Origin: Methanothrix harundinacea
GTDB lineage: Archaea; Halobacteriota; Methanosarcinia; Methanotrichales; Methanotrichaceae
Length of the DNA stretch: 57,915 bases
NCBI GenBank assembly: GCA_001509375.1
Contig: LGFT01000004.1
Span: forward strand, 1-57,915
Direction of reading: 5' to 3'
Each line of letters starts with the position of its first letter. Within the stretch, counting starts at the first letter, position 1. This document shows, piece after piece, positions 19,511-30,284 of the stretch. A program made the translations under genes and the position numbers. A model generated the notes under the pieces. It was given only the letters and a program-made list of their open reading frames with translations. It searched no databases and had not been told where the DNA came from.

Positions 19511-20212
19511 ATGAGAATTCTTCCTTTCAGCAGGATCGCACTATCGATGCTGGTTTTGACCCTGATGGCCTCCTCGGTCTCCTGGGCCCAAGACGAGATG
19601 CAGTATGGATCAAAGGTGAGATGGAACGATGTAGACGAGGGTGGGCCTCTCAGTCCTTTTTATATGGGTCCAGAGTTCGCCTTCTGGGATGGGGGCATTC
19701 GGGGGGTCTTCGATCCTGAGGATCCAGTCTACATAAACATAGATCCCACCGACGATGAGGTCAGCGAGAACGACGTTCGCCTGACCATTTTTGGCGATCT
19801 TCCTGCAGGGTCTCAGGTGGCCAAGGCAGATAACGACGTAGGACAGCCGTTGACGAAGTTCGGAACGGGCACCACTCCAAGGGCAGAGCTGAGGTTCCTG
19901 GACGTGAACGGTGATAGGGCTTACAGCCTAAATGACCCGATTTATCTGAATGTAGTTCCAGGGAAGATAAATTCCGGCGACGTCAGGATCACAAATTATC
20001 AGGGTTATCCTGCGGGAAGCAGAGTGGCGGATTCGGATCTCGATAACGGCCTTCCGACCTCAACCCTTCCGGGAATGCTGAGCTTCTTCAACACCAACGG
20101 AAACATCAACAACGGAGGATACGCCATCTACGATCGAGGGGACATCGTCTACATGGATACCCAGTATCCCTTCTACATGGTGACTATAAACGATGTCAGG
20201 ATGTCCATCTGA
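19511..20212 (+). CDS. Secreted three-repeat protein, paralogue 1
   Basis: 233 residues: a signal peptide (cleavage near SVSWAQ, residue 27) and then three repeats of about 65 residues, starting at YGSKV, AGSQV and AGSRV. Each runs through an Asp-rich segment (for example KADNDVGQPL), a variable core, a loop such as FLDVNGDRAYSLNDPIYLN and a closing D-V-R-(L/I/M). The loop looks like an EF-hand/dockerin-type calcium site (D-x-N-G-D), but the family is not one I can name. No anchor is visible, so it is probably released or held by partners. It is first of three tandem paralogues, with its own promoter. Confidence 0.7.
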   Translation: MRILPFSRIALSMLVLTLMASSVSWAQDEMQYGSKVRWNDVDEGGPLSPFYMGPEFAFWDGGIRGVFDPEDPVYINIDPTDDEVSENDVRLTIFGDLPAGSQVAKADNDVGQPLTKFGTGTTPRAELRFLDVNGDRAYSLNDPIYLNVVPGKINSGDVRITNYQGYPAGSRVADSDLDNGLPTSTLPGMLSFFNTNGNINNGGYAIYDRGDIVYMDTQYPFYMVTINDVRMSI

Positions 20213-20423
20213 ACTTCCATCGACCCCTCGTCTTCCCCTTCTTAGGAGGGCGAGGGAGTTGGGGACAATGGTTTTTCTTGGATCTAGACCCTTTTATGGC
20301 CCGGTGTCAACGATTTAGACGCGCCCGTTTTCCTTTTTGAGGGCTAGATCGAAATTTTTCTCCGATTAAAATCGCCATCAATATCATAGATCCCCTATAT
20401 CTCTCTGAATCCCCAAAAAAGTA

Positions 20424-20432
20424 CTTATAAGA
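20424..20432 (+). promoter_or_regulatory. TATA box for the second tri-repeat gene
   Basis: CTTATAAGA lies about 38-46 bp before TTG 20470, in an AT-rich leader; CTATAAGAAGGGGGG follows closer in and supplies the ribosome site. Confidence 0.5.
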
Positions 20433-20469
20433 TTACGATAGACTGTAACCTATAAGAAGGGGGGTTAAT

Positions 20470-21216
20470 TTGAAGGGATTAACGAAAGTCTGTATGCTGA
20501 CCGGACTGGTTTTAGCCCTTAGCTTGAATGGTGCTTTGGGACAGTTCGGGTCCAAAGTGATGACAGGAGACGCCGACGTCGGTCGTTTTATCGAGGATTT
20601 CCCAGCGCCTTTGAATCCGTCTCTCGGTTACTGGGATACAGGAGCAAATCCTGGAATCTATGACTCTGGCGACACCATTTATCTGGACATTTTGGGAAAT
20701 GGCATCATCGACGCCAATGATATAAGGCTTACCGATTATTATGGATATCCTGCGGGTTCAAAGGTGATATCCTCAGATAACGACATTAATAAGCCTCTGG
20801 TCGCTCTGCCGGGTCAGGCGGCTGGCATTTACTATGCAGACCTCTACGGCAGCCAGGGTTACGACTTCCAGGACCCTGTATACGTTCTGGCGATGACCCC
20901 TGCGGCCCTAGGTGCCAGGACCTCCACCAAAGACGTGCGACTGGGTCCAGTCTGTGGTCTATCTCCTGGGACGAAGGTGCTCGACTACCATCCTGACAAC
21001 GATGGGCCGGCGATTCCCATGATTGTGCCGTTGTCCGCCGGAGGGCCGGTAGCCACCATCAGGTTCTACAACACCAATGGCAACGTGGACGGGAACGGAG
21101 ATCCGATCTACGACTACAGCGACAACGTTTACATAGATGTATCACTTCCCAGCGTTCCGATGGGAGGTTATCCCTTCGGGTTTGTGGTTCCGAACAACAT
21201 CCGACTTTCTGCGTGA
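20470..21216 (+). CDS. Secreted three-repeat protein, paralogue 2
   Basis: 248 residues from TTG 20470, preceded by a GGGGGG ribosome site. The signal peptide ends near ALGQ (residue 25). Three repeats begin FGSKV, AGSKV and PGTKV and end NDIRL, KDVRL and NNIRL. Asp/Asn-rich loops recur, such as YNTNGNVDGNGDPIYDYSD in repeat 3. Same architecture as the neighbours at 19511 and 21254. The next gene starts 37 bp on, so paralogues 2 and 3 are likely one transcript. Confidence 0.7.
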   Translation: MKGLTKVCMLTGLVLALSLNGALGQFGSKVMTGDADVGRFIEDFPAPLNPSLGYWDTGANPGIYDSGDTIYLDILGNGIIDANDIRLTDYYGYPAGSKVISSDNDINKPLVALPGQAAGIYYADLYGSQGYDFQDPVYVLAMTPAALGARTSTKDVRLGPVCGLSPGTKVLDYHPDNDGPAIPMIVPLSAGGPVATIRFYNTNGNVDGNGDPIYDYSDNVYIDVSLPSVPMGGYPFGFVVPNNIRLSA

Positions 21217-21253
21217 TGAGGATTCAACGATCTCAAGATATCTGGAGGATAAC

Positions 21254-22027
21254 ATGACGAATTTGATGAGGGCCTGCGCTCTTGCGGCCCTGGTCTTCTT
21301 TCTCTGCATCGGTGGGACAAGCGGCCAGTTCGGGTACAGGATAACCAACTCTAGTCCAGAGAACGGGATGATCGTCGAGGACTTCGCATCTGCTGGCTCG
21401 GTGACTCAGACACCGGTACAGATGGGGTACTCGGTTGGGGGTGACGATACGGTGTATTTGCACATCGGAGAGGTCGCCATGACCGGCTCGAAGGTAGGGA
21501 TCAACGACATAAGGCTGACAATTTCTCCTTTCGGCCCACCTGGCTCAAAGGTAGGGGTTGTGGATGGAGATCGTGAGAACGATCTGAGGCGGTTTTCGTC
21601 GGGTCTGCCGCGAATTGTCTTCTTGGATGACGGCACCATTATAGGGCAGTTCGATCTGGACGATCCGGTTTACATCAAGGTCGTAACCCCGTTCGATAAG
21701 ATCGGGCCTGGAGACGTCAGGTTGGACTCTCCTGTGGACCTGCCGGGCACGAGGGTATTAGACTTCGATCCGGATAACGGTGCTTCTTGTTCTGTCCTGC
21801 ATTCCGGTCCCAGCTTCAACCTGTGGCTGCCGGGGGCGAGAGGTGTGGTCAGGTTCTACAACGCCAACGGAAACCTCTACGCCAATCCAGGTGCTCTCTT
21901 CGGCACTTGGCCCAGCCCGCCAATTTACGATGCACCTGACGTGGTTTATTTCGACGTATCGAGCCCCACAGCATATCCACGGAACTTCGGCTATCTTACG
22001 CCCAACGCCATACGCATGAGCAATTAG
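21254..22027 (+). CDS. Secreted three-repeat protein, paralogue 3
   Basis: 257 residues from ATG 21254, with GGAGG seven bases upstream. The signal peptide ends near TSGQ (residue 25). Repeats begin FGYRI (most diverged), PGSKV and PGTRV and end NDIRL, GDVRL and NAIRM. Repeat 2 has LDDGTIIGQFDLDDPVYIK, again a possible metal loop. Repeat 3 carries an inserted loop (YANPGALFGTWPSPP). A hairpin terminator follows directly. Function unknown; tandem duplication is evident. Confidence 0.7.
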   Translation: MTNLMRACALAALVFFLCIGGTSGQFGYRITNSSPENGMIVEDFASAGSVTQTPVQMGYSVGGDDTVYLHIGEVAMTGSKVGINDIRLTISPFGPPGSKVGVVDGDRENDLRRFSSGLPRIVFLDDGTIIGQFDLDDPVYIKVVTPFDKIGPGDVRLDSPVDLPGTRVLDFDPDNGASCSVLHSGPSFNLWLPGARGVVRFYNANGNLYANPGALFGTWPSPPIYDAPDVVYFDVSSPTAYPRNFGYLTPNAIRMSN

Positions 22028-24070: not shown

Positions 24071-26044
24071 TTGAGATCTCCAAGATGTGCACTACTGGTT
24101 TTTGTCGTGATCACGCTAACTCTGATACCAACAGCTATGGGCCAGACGGAAGCCTCACTGAGTTTCCAGCAGGCTGGAACCTCAAAGGTGCCCTTCAACG
24201 TCAATCAACCTATCGCCTACAAAGTTCACCTGGTCAATGGGATGACCTGCCCCATGCGTTATGTGGTGGAGATGGAAGTCGGGCCCGATTACACCGATTA
24301 TTCTGTTTCAAAAAAGTTTACGTCTGACGTAAGCCTCACGGCCCACTCGTCCCAAGATGTCAATTTTGAAGTTAACTTCAGGTCGCCGGAGATGAGCCGT
24401 GGAGCCTTCGGGTTATGGGCCACCGACGAGAACGATACCAGCATCTGGGAGAGGGGTTGGTACAGAGTGCAGATCGCTCCTCTAGTCGGAGATCAGGTGG
24501 CTTTGGAGGGTTACGACGGCCAGCCCGGTCTGATCAAGATGATCACCGTCTACAAGAACGCCGATGTCTTCCCTAAGATGGGCACCAACGATACCCGTTA
24601 CAGCTATCGTATTGACGTCTTCTCGAGTTCAGAAGACGTAGTGGCTCTTCAGGCAGCTCCAGAGGCGATCGGACCCTGGAGGGACTTGGGAAGCCAGAAC
24701 TACACCAATGTCGGCAATTGGCAGACTTTGAGGTGGGAAAACGTCTCCCTCGACTTCGATTTCATCGGTGCCCACTACAGGTTCGTGGGACGAAAGCAGA
24801 CGGAGAACTTCGAAGGCCCCTTCTGGCCTGTGGATTATGAGTACAAAGACCCCGGCGTAGATCCTGCCGACGGATTCTCTGGGTCGCCCTTCACCTACGT
24901 CCTCGACTTCAATGGCTCAAAGAACCTGGACGTGGGATTGAACATCTGGGACATAGATCAAAACCAGTTCAAGCTCGTCGAGAAGAAGAAGTACAGCAAC
25001 GCCACCTTCTGGCAGAGGATGGTATGGACAGGGGTCATGCCGAGCGAGATGATCGGCTCGGAGGGGGCCAGCTCCTACTATTTCAGCTTCTACTACCCTG
25101 GATCCGAGAGCCCTCTGGGCACCAGTCGGGAGGAGTTGGGGAAGGTGTACCAGGGACCTGAGATCGTCCTGGTAAAGTATGAGAACGCTTCCGTCTCTCC
25201 GGAGAGGGGCGGCACTGTAGCTAGGTATACATACTCTGTAGATGTCAGCACTGCCCTTCCCGTCTGCGACATCGAGCTTCAGACGAGCGAGCCGGGTTCC
25301 TCCCTCTGGAGGTCTCGGGGGATCGCCACATACAACGGCGACCCAAAAATCTGCTGGAAGGATGTATCTTTCGATGGTGACGTCGCCGGCAACGTAAGCT
25401 ATCGGTTCATACGGGCGGCTTCTCCCCCTACAGTTTACCAGGGGCCAAAGCTCATCAAAGAATCGATAACGGGAACGGTAATGCCCCGAAGGGGTGTTAT
25501 GCAGATCTTCCCTGATAATAACAACCTCAACAGGTACGTTTACACGATTCAAATTGAAAACCTTGGGAATGATTCTGAGGATGTGGGGGGGGTTTGGGTT
25601 GAGCTCCTGGTCAAGGCGCCCAACTCCGTCTGGAAGACTGTGGGCGAAAGAAAACAGTACGCTTCTTCAAATGGGAATGTATCCTGGGTGATCAAGCCTT
25701 TTATAGACGTTGAGTTTCTCGGATCTGCGGAATACAAGTTCCTGATCAACGGCGTCGATACCGAGATATTCCGGGGACCTGAGATCGTGGCCATGTACAA
25801 AAACCTCGATTATGAGGACGTCAGTCCTGGTCGCTATAACTACGTTGCCTGGGTGAACGGAAGCGTCAACTTGACCGCCGACCTGATCCACTCCACCGAC
25901 AACGAGAACTGGAAGAATTTGGAGGATTGGAAAGGCTACACAGCGGGATCGGGATGGCAGAAGTTAATCTGGAATAACAAACCCGGATACAGGTTCTACG
26001 AGGTCGATATCAAATTCGGAGAAGAGGCGGGGCCCAAGGCATGA
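24071..26044 (+). CDS. Large secreted protein with five beta-rich repeats
   Basis: 657 residues from TTG 24071 with a signal peptide ending near TAMGQ. After an N-terminal domain of about 140 residues come roughly five repeats of 85-110 residues, each with a Y-x-Y strand, a W-x3-G-x3-Y section, a W-x-D/N-V strand and a closing YRF...F-x-GP-x-I (for example EGPFW, YQGPEI, YQGPKL, FRGPEI). Many N-x-S/T sequons suggest N-glycosylation outside the cell. It has no anchor. It overlaps the next gene by ATGA, so it heads the operon that includes the FtsZ-like GTPase. A run of eight G lies at 25585-25592. Not a family I can name. Confidence 0.7.
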   Translation: MRSPRCALLVFVVITLTLIPTAMGQTEASLSFQQAGTSKVPFNVNQPIAYKVHLVNGMTCPMRYVVEMEVGPDYTDYSVSKKFTSDVSLTAHSSQDVNFEVNFRSPEMSRGAFGLWATDENDTSIWERGWYRVQIAPLVGDQVALEGYDGQPGLIKMITVYKNADVFPKMGTNDTRYSYRIDVFSSSEDVVALQAAPEAIGPWRDLGSQNYTNVGNWQTLRWENVSLDFDFIGAHYRFVGRKQTENFEGPFWPVDYEYKDPGVDPADGFSGSPFTYVLDFNGSKNLDVGLNIWDIDQNQFKLVEKKKYSNATFWQRMVWTGVMPSEMIGSEGASSYYFSFYYPGSESPLGTSREELGKVYQGPEIVLVKYENASVSPERGGTVARYTYSVDVSTALPVCDIELQTSEPGSSLWRSRGIATYNGDPKICWKDVSFDGDVAGNVSYRFIRAASPPTVYQGPKLIKESITGTVMPRRGVMQIFPDNNNLNRYVYTIQIENLGNDSEDVGGVWVELLVKAPNSVWKTVGERKQYASSNGNVSWVIKPFIDVEFLGSAEYKFLINGVDTEIFRGPEIVAMYKNLDYEDVSPGRYNYVAWVNGSVNLTADLIHSTDNENWKNLEDWKGYTAGSGWQKLIWNNKPGYRFYEVDIKFGEEAGPKA

Positions 26045-27468
26045 AGAGAAGGTCTATAGCAATATTTCTGCTAATTTTCTTCTACCTTCTGGGATCTGTC
26101 CAGGCTGCCGAGGGTCCGGGAGGGCCGAGTGGGTCTTCGGGCGGCGGTGGCGAGTCCAGCAGCTCCAGCGGTGGCAGGAAGATAGTCAAGCTGGATCTGG
26201 AGGATTTGATCGGAAACCTTGAGAAGTGGAAGCAAGACGACCCTTCCAATTATGAGTACCTTAAAAAGCTTCTCCACATACCCTTCGTCCCGCCCAAGGA
26301 TTACGCAGCTCCCACCGTTTATCTTTGGTACCCTTCAGGCAAGACCAATATCACGAGAAACGATAAGCTTGACATATACGCCTATGTAAAGAACGACAAC
26401 CCCATCGAGGTTCGTTCGGACGTTTACCTCTGGCTGGAGGCTAAGGGTCCCGGCGAGGAGGAATTTACGAGGGTTGGATCTCAGAGGGTGATCCTCGCCA
26501 ACGAGTACTCAGAAAAAAATAACGTCACCACCAGGGACTGGTCTGGCATGACCCCCTTCGTCGATTCAAAGGCTATAGGAAATGCTACCTTCCGCATATG
26601 GTTCAACGACATGCATAGCACCTACTACACCGACACCATGTACTCTAACCCCTATAATCGGGGCGAATACCACAGCCTCCTCGAGCTGGACTTGGTCAAC
26701 AGCCCTCCCGAAGTTGACGAGGGAAGCATCGGGGTCGAGCCGGCCAGGGCCAGGTACAACGATCCTATCCGGTACCTATCCAGGTTTGTCGACACCGATG
26801 GGGACATGATCAACGTTACCATCCACGTCCTCGACGACCAGAAGGGGGAATTGAGGAACGAGACCCAATACGTGAAATCTGGAACGAACGTCACCTTCAT
26901 CGCCAGCGAGTATGGTTTCTTTGGAGAGGGGGATGCGGGAAAGAACTTCTCTTACCGCTACACCTACGGCGACGGCCTCAACAGCATTATCACGGAGATC
27001 TTCCCCGGGCCCACCCTTCTGCCGAGCCCCAAGATATTCGTCTCGGACCCCCATGTTGAGGCCGCAGACGAGAACCGATACTGGTGGCAGAACTACAGGT
27101 TCAGCCTAAAGGCGAAGAACCCGGAGATGAATAACCTCAGAATAGACCTTTACACCAGCACGCCGTCTCATCCCAACAGATATCAGGATACGAGGGTTAT
27201 AAATTCCTCAGATGAGGCGCAGGACGTCCTCTTCGACATCAAACCCTTCGACGTCTCTGACGCAAACGAGAGCTTCACCTACAGCTTCAAATACTCGGCG
27301 ACGGACCAGAACTCTCGAGAGGAAACCGGCGACTTATCTGGTGGCAGCATCAACCCGAAGATCGTCAGGTATCCGATATACTCGATGGTGACTATCGGAA
27401 ACCTTCTCGCCGTCATCCTGGCGGCGCTGGTGGGCGGGATCGTGATAGAGAGGAGGCTATACCAATGA
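26041..27468 (+). CDS. Secreted beta-rich protein with C-terminal membrane anchor
   Basis: 475 residues: signal peptide (to about VQAAEG), a Gly/Ser-rich linker, a coiled segment (LEDLIGNLEKWKQDD), several Ig-like domains (TVYLWYPSGKTNITRNDKL; SPPEVDEGSIGVEPARARYND; DGDMINVTIHVLDD) and a single membrane helix at about 449-469 followed by a short basic tail (IERRLYQ). So the bulk is outside and a few residues face the cytoplasm. Sequons are frequent. ATGA overlaps at both ends couple it to the upstream secreted repeat protein and the downstream polytopic protein; it may anchor the former. Confidence 0.72.
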   Translation: MKRRSIAIFLLIFFYLLGSVQAAEGPGGPSGSSGGGGESSSSSGGRKIVKLDLEDLIGNLEKWKQDDPSNYEYLKKLLHIPFVPPKDYAAPTVYLWYPSGKTNITRNDKLDIYAYVKNDNPIEVRSDVYLWLEAKGPGEEEFTRVGSQRVILANEYSEKNNVTTRDWSGMTPFVDSKAIGNATFRIWFNDMHSTYYTDTMYSNPYNRGEYHSLLELDLVNSPPEVDEGSIGVEPARARYNDPIRYLSRFVDTDGDMINVTIHVLDDQKGELRNETQYVKSGTNVTFIASEYGFFGEGDAGKNFSYRYTYGDGLNSIITEIFPGPTLLPSPKIFVSDPHVEAADENRYWWQNYRFSLKAKNPEMNNLRIDLYTSTPSHPNRYQDTRVINSSDEAQDVLFDIKPFDVSDANESFTYSFKYSATDQNSREETGDLSGGSINPKIVRYPIYSMVTIGNLLAVILAALVGGIVIERRLYQ

Positions 27469-28154
27469 ACGGCCTGAACGAGACGGTGGCGAGCGCCCAG
27501 GCCGTCGATATATCGTCACCTTCAGGCCTGGTGCCCGAGGGGCTGACGAGCTTTCTTGCCGACGTATATTCCAACGGCCTTCTGGGCCTTGGGCTCTTCC
27601 TCCTCCTGTTGGCCCTGGGCCTCGCGCTTCACGGGCTGAACATGAAAAGGACCTATGAGAGGGTGGCGGCCACCACCAACGGCGGCGAGGTCTCTCGAGA
27701 CGATCTTCGTGAGGAGATGTTCGTCCGTCAGGGCTCAAACTTCAACGCAGCCGCCGTCACAGGCTGGCTGCTCCTCTTTGTGGCCTTGAGCTACTTCTAC
27801 TTCCTGACGCCTGAGATCTTCCCCCGATACAACTACTACCAAGTCCCGACCCTGGCTTCGGGACCCCTGGGGTTTTTTGCCTTCGGGTTCGTCGTCCTCC
27901 TTTTGGCCCTCGGAGCTGCCGCTTTCGTTCCGAGGGAATTTTACGGCTACTATGAGCTCTCGAGACGGATGAAGGTCGCCATCATGCTCACAGGGCCAGT
28001 GCTGGCGATCTCCATCCTTCTATCCGTCCAGCAGGGGACGACATTTCCTCAGGTCGAGCCGGCCTCGAGACTTCTCGCCTTTCTGGCCCTCTTCGCCTCG
28101 GAGCTGGCGCTGCTCTGGCCGATATATGCCGAGGCCCTGGGAGGGATGAGATGA
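27465..28154 (+). CDS. Polytopic membrane protein of the FtsZ-like operon
   Basis: 229 residues with about five helices (37-57, 96-115, 133-154, 171-188, 202-221). A cytoplasmic or external loop of about 40 charged residues lies between helices 1 and 2 (KRTYERVAATTNGGEVSRDD). No known transporter or enzyme motif is visible. It overlaps both neighbours by four bases (ATGA), the downstream one being the FtsZ/tubulin-like GTPase, so a role as its membrane partner is a reasonable inference. Confidence 0.68.
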   Translation: MNGLNETVASAQAVDISSPSGLVPEGLTSFLADVYSNGLLGLGLFLLLLALGLALHGLNMKRTYERVAATTNGGEVSRDDLREEMFVRQGSNFNAAAVTGWLLLFVALSYFYFLTPEIFPRYNYYQVPTLASGPLGFFAFGFVVLLLALGAAAFVPREFYGYYELSRRMKVAIMLTGPVLAISILLSVQQGTTFPQVEPASRLLAFLALFASELALLWPIYAEALGGMR

Positions 28155-29689
28155 AACTTTGTATCGTCGGAATCGGTGGGTGTGGAGGTCATCTGGCGGA
28201 ACGCTTTCTCAATAACCAGGATATATCTTTGCTTAAGAAGTCCCTGGGGGAGCACGTCTCCTTCGGAGGCGTCAAGGGCCTGTGGCTCGAGGCCGACGTT
28301 CAGGAGACGGAGAATCAGGACTTCTTCGGCCCCCTGGAGAGGGGATGCTATCCCGGCTTTTTCGTCCCCCACGACGTCATAGGCTCTGAATCGAAGACCT
28401 CGAAGCTGATCGTCGATCGTTACGGCTATGACGTCAAGAAACAGGGATTCATGAGACAGGCAGAATTTTTGAAGGCTGTCTTCGAGATCTTCGAGAGCGA
28501 CGAGGACGTAAAGCGGACCGCCCTCTCGGAGCACGAGTCTGAAAACCCGATCCTCAGAGCCGCCTGGGACCGGATACGCCCCTACACCACTCTCACGGGC
28601 CCCAGGGATAACAACAACGGGTCAGAGATGTGCGACGGGATCCTCTTTCTAGTCTCCTTCGGCGGCGGGACGGGGACCGGCTTTGTAAACCCCATCACCA
28701 GGTACATCAGGAGCGAGAGGCCTGCCTATCCCGTCTTCGTGCTGGGGGTGCTCACCGAGGAGGGGACCGACCCCCAGCAGAGGGCGAAGGAGGCGAAGAG
28801 GGACCTGGGAGCCACCATCTCCCTCTACGATCTTTTGACCAAGAGGGTCGGGGTGGGGGTGGACGGGGTGATCGTTATCGACAACCAGATCATGGTGGAG
28901 AAGTTCGGCCAGAACTACCCCGCCATCGACGACTACATCCACCAGGCCATGAAGCCTTTCGTTGCCGCACGCCACTATCCCGGGGAGGACCCGCCGAGCC
29001 TCGCCATGAGGGAGAAGTTCATTGAGGGGCTCGACCACCCGCCCATCCTCGTCCCCTGCTACTTCCGGGATAGGAGGAGAAAGGACCCCGAGGAGAACCT
29101 GGTCAAAAAGGCCCTCTCTGAGGGTATGCTCTTCGGGTGTGATCCCGCCATGGCCGAGAGGGCCTACGTCTTCACCAGGGGTTTTGTGGGCCTCGACAAG
29201 ATCCTGGGGGCGGTGGCGCGGCAGACCGGCCTTGCCGAAGATCGGATCGAGCCCTGGAGGAAGCTCGGGGAGAACCACGCCGACGAGATCCTGATCCTCC
29301 TGCGAAACCCCTATGGGGAGGAAAGAGGGTGCGAGGTTAAGGGAAACCTAGAATATCGGATTCACAGGGTGATCAGGATGGCTCTCAGGTACATGGACGA
29401 TCCCGAGAGCAATTTGATCCCCGATGGGATGCCGGATCTGACGAAAACGTCCCTGGAGGACTACTTCTACGGGGACGACGGGGTCCGGGGCCGGCTGAAG
29501 GTGGGTCTCCAAAGGATCGAGGAGGGAAAGACGCCCTTCTTCCTCGATGAGAGGAGGATCTTCGAGAGGTCGAACTTGAACTCCGGCGTCCTCGAGCCTC
29601 ATCGGGGCGGCAGGAAGGTCGACGACGAGGAGATCCGAAGGCTCGTGGAGGGAGAGGTGAAGAGGGTCCTCGCCGAACGGGGGCTCTGA
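28151..29689 (+). CDS. Divergent FtsZ/tubulin-superfamily GTPase
   Basis: 512 residues, no membrane segment. The N-terminal strand and loop KLCIVGIGGCGGHLAERF is in the position of the FtsZ T1 loop; the tubulin signature GGGTGTG is at 171-177 in LVSFGGGTGTGFVNP; the following PVFVLGVLTEEGTD and DGVIVIDNQ match the strand order of FtsZ after T4, and NYPAIDDYIHQAMKPF may hold the T7 region. It is longer than FtsZ (about 360) with an insert between T1 and T4 and a C-terminal extension of about 150 residues. It lacks the ordinary FtsZ tail. Comparative work has proposed FtsZ-like families tied to membrane remodelling (FtsZl types), and this could be one. Here it is coupled to membrane and exported proteins. 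Polymerisation is inferred only. Confidence 0.8.
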   Translation: MKLCIVGIGGCGGHLAERFLNNQDISLLKKSLGEHVSFGGVKGLWLEADVQETENQDFFGPLERGCYPGFFVPHDVIGSESKTSKLIVDRYGYDVKKQGFMRQAEFLKAVFEIFESDEDVKRTALSEHESENPILRAAWDRIRPYTTLTGPRDNNNGSEMCDGILFLVSFGGGTGTGFVNPITRYIRSERPAYPVFVLGVLTEEGTDPQQRAKEAKRDLGATISLYDLLTKRVGVGVDGVIVIDNQIMVEKFGQNYPAIDDYIHQAMKPFVAARHYPGEDPPSLAMREKFIEGLDHPPILVPCYFRDRRRKDPEENLVKKALSEGMLFGCDPAMAERAYVFTRGFVGLDKILGAVARQTGLAEDRIEPWRKLGENHADEILILLRNPYGEERGCEVKGNLEYRIHRVIRMALRYMDDPESNLIPDGMPDLTKTSLEDYFYGDDGVRGRLKVGLQRIEEGKTPFFLDERRIFERSNLNSGVLEPHRGGRKVDDEEIRRLVEGEVKRVLAERGL

Positions 29690-29705
29690 ACCGGGGAGGG
29701 CCGAA

Positions 29706-30284
29706 ATGGCGAAGAAGGCCGCACTCCTGGTATCAGCCCTGATCCTCATCGGGGCTTACGCCCTCTTCTTCGGCGGTGAGGACGACTTCCCCAGCGGCGG
29801 CTTCTGCGGAAGAGACATGCCGGACCCCTACTACCTTGATCTGAAGCCCGCCGACGTCCAGAACCCCGACGACGTGATCAGGTACTCCAGTTCCATCAAA
29901 GGCTACGCAGAAGACCTGGACGTCTTTGAGAGGGCCGCCTTTTATGAGTGGTACTTCAAAAGCCACGGGTTTGACGTCTCCTTCGCCTACGCCGAAAAGT
30001 TCGCCGATACGGAGAACGACCACCTCTGGCTCCTGGTGAGGAACAGGAAGGGCGAGGTGATCGAGGTCGACCCCTCCTTCTCGGAGGTCGGAGGATCGTC
30101 GATGGTGCCTCTCGACCGGGCGTACGCCGTTCGCGACCGGGAGTTTGACGACATCTATTCGGCGAAAGAGGCCCTCGGCGAGGATGCTGTGACCTGGTGG
30201 AGGGATGAGAAGGCCTGCAAGGTGCTGAATGAGAACGTCCTGGTGACGGAGAAGGAGAGAGCGCAGAGTATGGCGGACGCCTAG
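29706..30284 (+). CDS. Membrane-anchored transglutaminase-like domain protein
   Basis: 192 residues with an N-terminal membrane helix at 6-22 and a domain outside. FERAAFYEWYFKSHGFDVSFAYAE (74-97) followed by NDHLWLLVRNRKGEVIEVDPSF (104-125) resembles the helix-His-Asp order of transglutaminase-like proteins, but the position of the nucleophilic Cys is Phe/Tyr, so it is probably not catalytic. It starts 16 bp after the FtsZ-like gene, with GGGGAGG upstream, and closes the operon. The fold call is tentative. Confidence 0.55.
   Translation: MAKKAALLVSALILIGAYALFFGGEDDFPSGGFCGRDMPDPYYLDLKPADVQNPDDVIRYSSSIKGYAEDLDVFERAAFYEWYFKSHGFDVSFAYAEKFADTENDHLWLLVRNRKGEVIEVDPSFSEVGGSSMVPLDRAYAVRDREFDDIYSAKEALGEDAVTWWRDEKACKVLNENVLVTEKERAQSMADA

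Follow-up and report, generated by a model that had tools for sequence, protein, structure and literature searches.

A conserved four-gene module encoding a tubulin-superfamily protein with exported and membrane partners in the Methanotrichaceae

The Methanotrichaceae are major acetate-using methane producers. We analyzed a stretch of 57,915 nucleotides from Methanothrix harundinacea (contig LGFT01000004.1 of assembly GCA_001509375.1, forward strand), called the window in what follows, in which five consecutive open reading frames on the + strand, A to E, place a gene for a tubulin-superfamily protein among genes for exported and membrane proteins. Gene A (24071..26044), the first of the module, starts with TTG and codes for a secreted protein of 657 residues with a signal peptide, five β-rich repeats of about 95 residues and no transmembrane anchor. 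Gene B (26041..27468) codes for 475 residues with a signal peptide, one C-terminal transmembrane anchor and extracellular tandem domains of the immunoglobulin (Ig)/fibronectin type III (Fn3) kind; gene C (27465..28154) for 229 residues with five predicted transmembrane segments; gene D (28151..29689) for the tubulin-superfamily protein, 512 residues long, predicted to bind GTP and without transmembrane segments; and gene E (29706..30284) for 192 residues with an N-terminal transmembrane segment. The pairs A/B, B/C and C/D each overlap by the four nucleotides ATGA, at 26041, 27465 and 28151, and a gap of 16 bp separates D from E. An earlier sequence-only reading of this DNA had reported the five frames, the three overlaps, the gap and a GGGTGTG motif at residues 171-177 of D, and had described A as carrying five repeats, B as anchored and Ig-like, C as a protein with five transmembrane segments and D as a member of the FtsZ/tubulin superfamily; all of these points held up in the analysis presented here.

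The order A-B-C-D was kept at nearly every Methanotrichaceae locus examined, so that the conservation of neighbours by which that reading had proposed to check itself was borne out. Of 26 loci, 24 had a C-D overlap of exactly 4 bp, and 16 a B-C overlap of that length. D was found in 45 of 50 Methanotrichaceae genomes (32 of the 33 of good quality) and B in 43 of 50 (31 of 33). All five genomes without D, one of them complete (G015), were also without B; in the two genomes with D and without B, D is fragmentary in one and sits at a contig edge in the second. Only seven distinct loci have E after D. The linked set of five genes proposed earlier therefore stands for A to D and was rejected as a five-gene unit: A-B-C-D is a conserved four-gene module, and E is an accessory gene. 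The window's genome, G001 and G011 have two copies of the module each, the second copy of the window's genome being diverged and located on its contig C51 (L056, 2-6995). That the module helps these methanogens, which grow as filaments, to make their proteinaceous sheath or S-layer would suit its family-wide distribution and its secreted repeat proteins; however, the complete 3.0-Mb genome G015 is without the module, its syntenic slot after the genes for RNase HII and a class-V aminotransferase holding none, and we regard this explanation as very improbable. Upstream of the RNase HII gene of the window, at 19511-22027, lie three tandem genes for paralogous secreted proteins of 233, 248 and 296 residues with GSKV-type repeats.

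D was matched in 141 of the 238 genomes of the class; full-length D was limited to the Methanotrichaceae, and matches in other families reached at most 47 bits, the score expected of FtsZ/CetZ relatives. A scan of 394 genomes of the phylum gave a single outsider, G269, the Methanocellaceae metagenome-assembled genome UBA148 (L102/L163), whose A-B-C-D copy nests inside the Methanotrichaceae in the tree. By 3-mer composition, this contig matches its own genome more closely (0.126) than do three Methanotrichaceae module loci (0.20-0.40). Since the contig has the base make-up of its host, misbinning is less likely than lateral transfer, by which UBA148 probably gained the module. A GH25 lysozyme-like gene adjoins it there (L163 10244-11869). 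A wider scan of 84,980 species genomes, which requires short exact peptides and from which distant bacterial relatives would escape, returned 44 loci, almost all labelled Methanotrichaceae. A mobile or viral origin was rejected, as tblastn against plasmids and phages gave no match.

The proteins encoded around D share features of their own. A profile of the A repeat found five copies in the A protein of the window, 3-6 in nearly all relatives and 2 in one fragment at a contig edge, and no copies in a shuffled control. Because the same profile also matches almost every B, with 2-3 copies, A and B are made of one and the same repeat unit. N-glycosylation sequons number 12 in A and 9 in B, and the AlphaFold2 model of B (predicted local distance difference test, pLDDT, 83) gave tandem Ig/Fn3 chains as Foldseek matches. 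In C, the loop between the first and second transmembrane segments is basic/charged and predicted to be cytosolic; by the positive-inside rule, the N-terminus of C would therefore lie outside and its C-terminus inside. Searches of PDB sequences with C and B gave no known family, and NCBIfam yielded only weak matches far below cut-off (for example C to AmaP, 0.012). E had been described as an anchored transglutaminase-like protein. It does have an N-terminal transmembrane segment, but the transglutaminase label finds no support in its sequence: E has no match to Pfam transglutaminase even at E≤1, hhalign against seven Transglut_core proteins gave probabilities of ≤1.4%, and its HxW...(D/E)PS motif comes with no conserved Cys. 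In one relative, a gene for a true Transglut_core plus KY-like Ig protein stands divergently next to gene A (L060 12257-13618).

Several lines of evidence place D in the tubulin superfamily. D scores above the cut-off of Pfam Tubulin (1.4e-8, 35.7 bits, cut-off 33), and a PDB search with a profile of 26 D sequences recovered tubulin, TubZ and CetZ at E values of about 5e-5 to 1e-4 over residues 154-355. With the AlphaFold2 model of D (pLDDT 83; predicted template-modelling score, pTM, 0.85), Foldseek matched tubulin along the length of the protein (E 1.5e-13), and CetZ2, at 0.74 by target length, had the best target-normalised TM-score among the matches listed. Structure prediction thus returned the tubulin fold on which the earlier proposal had depended, and by profile and model D is a true tubulin-superfamily protein. 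The trees also took in FtsZ1/2, CetZ, archaeal FtsZl1 and tubulin-like proteins of the same class that occur in tandem. D formed a single branch, at 99/99 and in a second tree at 100/100, outside all of these groups, so that a position inside the CetZ or FtsZ branch was discarded; in an earlier, smaller tree the support was only 75/93, and no supported sister group of the D branch was found. Judged by these trees, D is a family of its own beside FtsZ/CetZ and FtsZl1, with FtsZl2 and the published group Halo.Tub compared by description only. Its members range from about 508 to 690 residues. The D gene of G005 (L055 8721-10475) is interrupted by one in-frame TAG, for which a pseudogene, a sequencing error and recoding are all possible.

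The T1 loop of D (GIGGCG, residues 7-12, 28169..28186) is near-invariant and the T4 loop (GGGTGTG, 28661..28681) invariant among 26 homologues, and the intact T1, T4 and T6 loops, together with the fold, make it likely that D binds GTP. In FtsZ, the T7 loop contributes acidic residues that make the catalytic site of the adjoining subunit complete. Alignment with FtsZ, CetZ and FtsZl1 placed the end of helix H7 and the equivalent of the T7 loop of D at approximately 28943..29032, a segment containing RHYPGEDPPSLAMREKF, where the FtsZ motif N-x-D-x-x-D is not kept: D has GEDPPSLAMR, against LINLDFADVR in FtsZ and TDLGD in CetZ, and the position varies across the D family. The acidic T7 residues of FtsZ/CetZ are not conserved in D or across its family. 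Ordinary hydrolysis of the FtsZ type is therefore doubtful, and D is more likely to serve as a scaffold, with slow hydrolysis or none, than as a motor; the name of cytomotive GTPase given to it earlier goes beyond this evidence. The homologue alignment and the AlphaFold2 model further delimit a variable disordered linker (about residues 474-490) and a conserved C-terminal helix (492-509), together at 29570..29686, a layout that resembles the arrangement by which FtsZ docks to membrane adaptors. This layout, the tubulin fold and the CetZ2 match would agree with D being a further FtsZ/CetZ-type paralogue that acts in cell division or shape, its neighbours being envelope proteins needed there. 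However, the window's genome carries three conventional FtsZ/CetZ genes besides D, the complete genome G015 does without the module, and D is without the T7 acids; we consider such a role unlikely.

Genes with a Pfam VWA domain stand next to the module in about six placements that are independent of one another. Second module copies have such a gene directly downstream, both on contig C51 of the window's genome (a secreted vWA protein, 87 bp away) and in L052. The vWA gene is also downstream of the module in L051, L057 and L163, whereas in genus g9 it is directly upstream and in G010 and G009 it lies 2 kb upstream. Genomes of about 2-3 Mb hold 3-9 vWA domains, and we estimate chance adjacency at a few percent per locus. 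In one clade (L048 9744-11748, L050 10859-12846 and related g8 loci), D is repeatedly followed downstream by genes for a thioredoxin-like secreted protein (CVPC) and for a membrane protein resembling CcdA, and a redox link between them and the surface proteins is possible. The conflict systems of Kaur et al. 2020 (PMC7159879), with DO-GTPase and GAP1-N2, also combine tubulin-domain, vWA, transmembrane and FnIII-repeat proteins, and the module could be a defence-type system of this kind. Nevertheless, none of the five proteins had a PADLOC match, no DO-GTPase or GAP1 gene was seen in the neighbourhood (no genome-wide search was made) and no variable effector genes were seen near the module, and its inheritance is largely vertical at one syntenic site. 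We hold this explanation to be very unlikely.

The reading that we prefer, tentatively and at somewhat less than even chances, is that A-B-C-D is a lineage-specific transmembrane module in which D binds GTP, docks to the membrane and, as a tubulin-like scaffold, organises a surface complex of the Ig/Fn3 type. This reading draws on the family and fold of D, on the gene order and the C-D overlap, on the co-occurrence of B and D, and on the predicted topology, the repeat shared by A and B, the sequons and the vWA neighbours. D would bind GTP and form a scaffold of the tubulin type against the cytoplasmic side of the membrane, docking via the five-transmembrane protein C, probably through the conserved C-terminal helix that follows the variable linker. 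The tail of FtsZ, which works with SepF/FtsA, offers an analogue for such docking. The membrane would be bridged by C and the anchored protein B, and the secreted protein A would stack on B outside. The module would cluster or position a surface complex that serves adhesion or the organisation of the envelope, at times along with secreted vWA proteins, and the direction could be either inside-out placing or outside-in sensing. Several points weigh against this reading. Polymer turnover by D may be absent because its T7 loop is not FtsZ-like; a short conserved tail does not prove docking; conserved gene order can stem from co-regulation without physical contact; and vWA genes adjoin the module in a minority of loci, with none in the window itself. 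A more ambitious version, which we think possible though rather doubtful, is an archaeal machine in which D, as a membrane-docked internal filament of a new tubulin-superfamily family, acts through a five-transmembrane coupler and an Ig/Fn3 stalk to place or move an external adhesin complex of repeat and vWA proteins, a prokaryotic counterpart of the linkage between cytoskeleton and adhesins. If the preferred reading is true, the module would offer a clear example in which fixed genetic partners couple a tubulin-like scaffold to the archaeal surface. It would also be a compact set of four genes for asking whether members of the tubulin superfamily besides FtsZ serve to organise envelopes.

Among known systems, CetZ, including the single CetZ of Methanosarcinales, shares with D the fold and the DNQ motif of T6; it differs in its length of about 370 residues, in the SGGTGSS that Methanosarcinia CetZ has in place of GGGTGTG, in its acidic T7 loop and in its separate branch. 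FtsZl2, as described in the passages found of PMC2875224, resembles D in having T1, T4 and H7, no coiled coil and an extra C-terminal region, but it is proteobacterial, has no conserved neighbours and keeps all loops including T7. In the passages found of PMC9871819 and PMC9856176, Halo.Tub and other non-canonical archaeal tubulin-like proteins are, like D, Halobacterota paralogues outside FtsZ/CetZ. PMC9871819 gives Halo.Tub no settled placement and a context of quasi-tandem copies, whereas each A-B-C-D module has a single D; this comparison is by description only, and these two papers may have counted D among their sequences. Convergent pairs of tubulin-like genes (404-424 residues), with two different long-branched types per pair, occur in other Methanosarcinia (L145 9551-12027, L146 10985-13461) and are perhaps the published Halo.Tub. 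Neither the D family nor its A-D partner set is described in the passages found of PMC2875224, PMC9871819 and PMC9856176, and the Methanothrix papers searched yielded no mention or expression of the module genes.

The closest comparison is with FtsZl1, and the main rival explanation starts from it: the module could be a diverged branch of the FtsZl1/vWA systems for membrane remodelling or vesicles (Makarova and Koonin 2010, PMC2875224) with its partners replaced. In the passages found of that paper, FtsZl1 is likewise a tubulin-superfamily protein apart from cell-division FtsZ, its gene sharing an operon with those for exported and membrane proteins and having vWA genes nearby, which the vWA neighbours of the module may echo. 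In the archaeal FtsZl1 operons that we examined, FtsZl1 is encoded together with an anchored exported protein, a GTPase-like membrane protein and a protein of about 600 residues, and hhalign aligned D with FtsZl1 from T1 through T4 at 96% probability. However, D scores only 11.1 bits (E 0.23) on Pfam Tubulin_2 (PF13809, FtsZl1), below the cut-off of 27, and was not among the matches reported in a class-wide Tubulin_2 search. Archaeal FtsZl1 has about 1050 residues (mostly 990-1190) with a long coiled-coil/helical C-terminal extension that the shorter D does not have, and it has lost the T6-H7 region that D keeps. By score, length and its separate supported branch, D was rejected as a member of FtsZl1. 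Furthermore, A, B, C and E showed no profile similarity to the archaeal FtsZl1-operon partners in the pairs compared by hhalign. The earlier claim that the partners are unlike those of published FtsZl families thus stands as to the homology of A, B and C, and has to be qualified for the vWA neighbours and the anchored exported and transmembrane proteins common to both. We give the FtsZl1 origin a modest chance, higher than that of any other rival though still on the unlikely side. Beside FtsZ/CetZ and FtsZl1, D is a well-supported further family, useful for the history of the superfamily.

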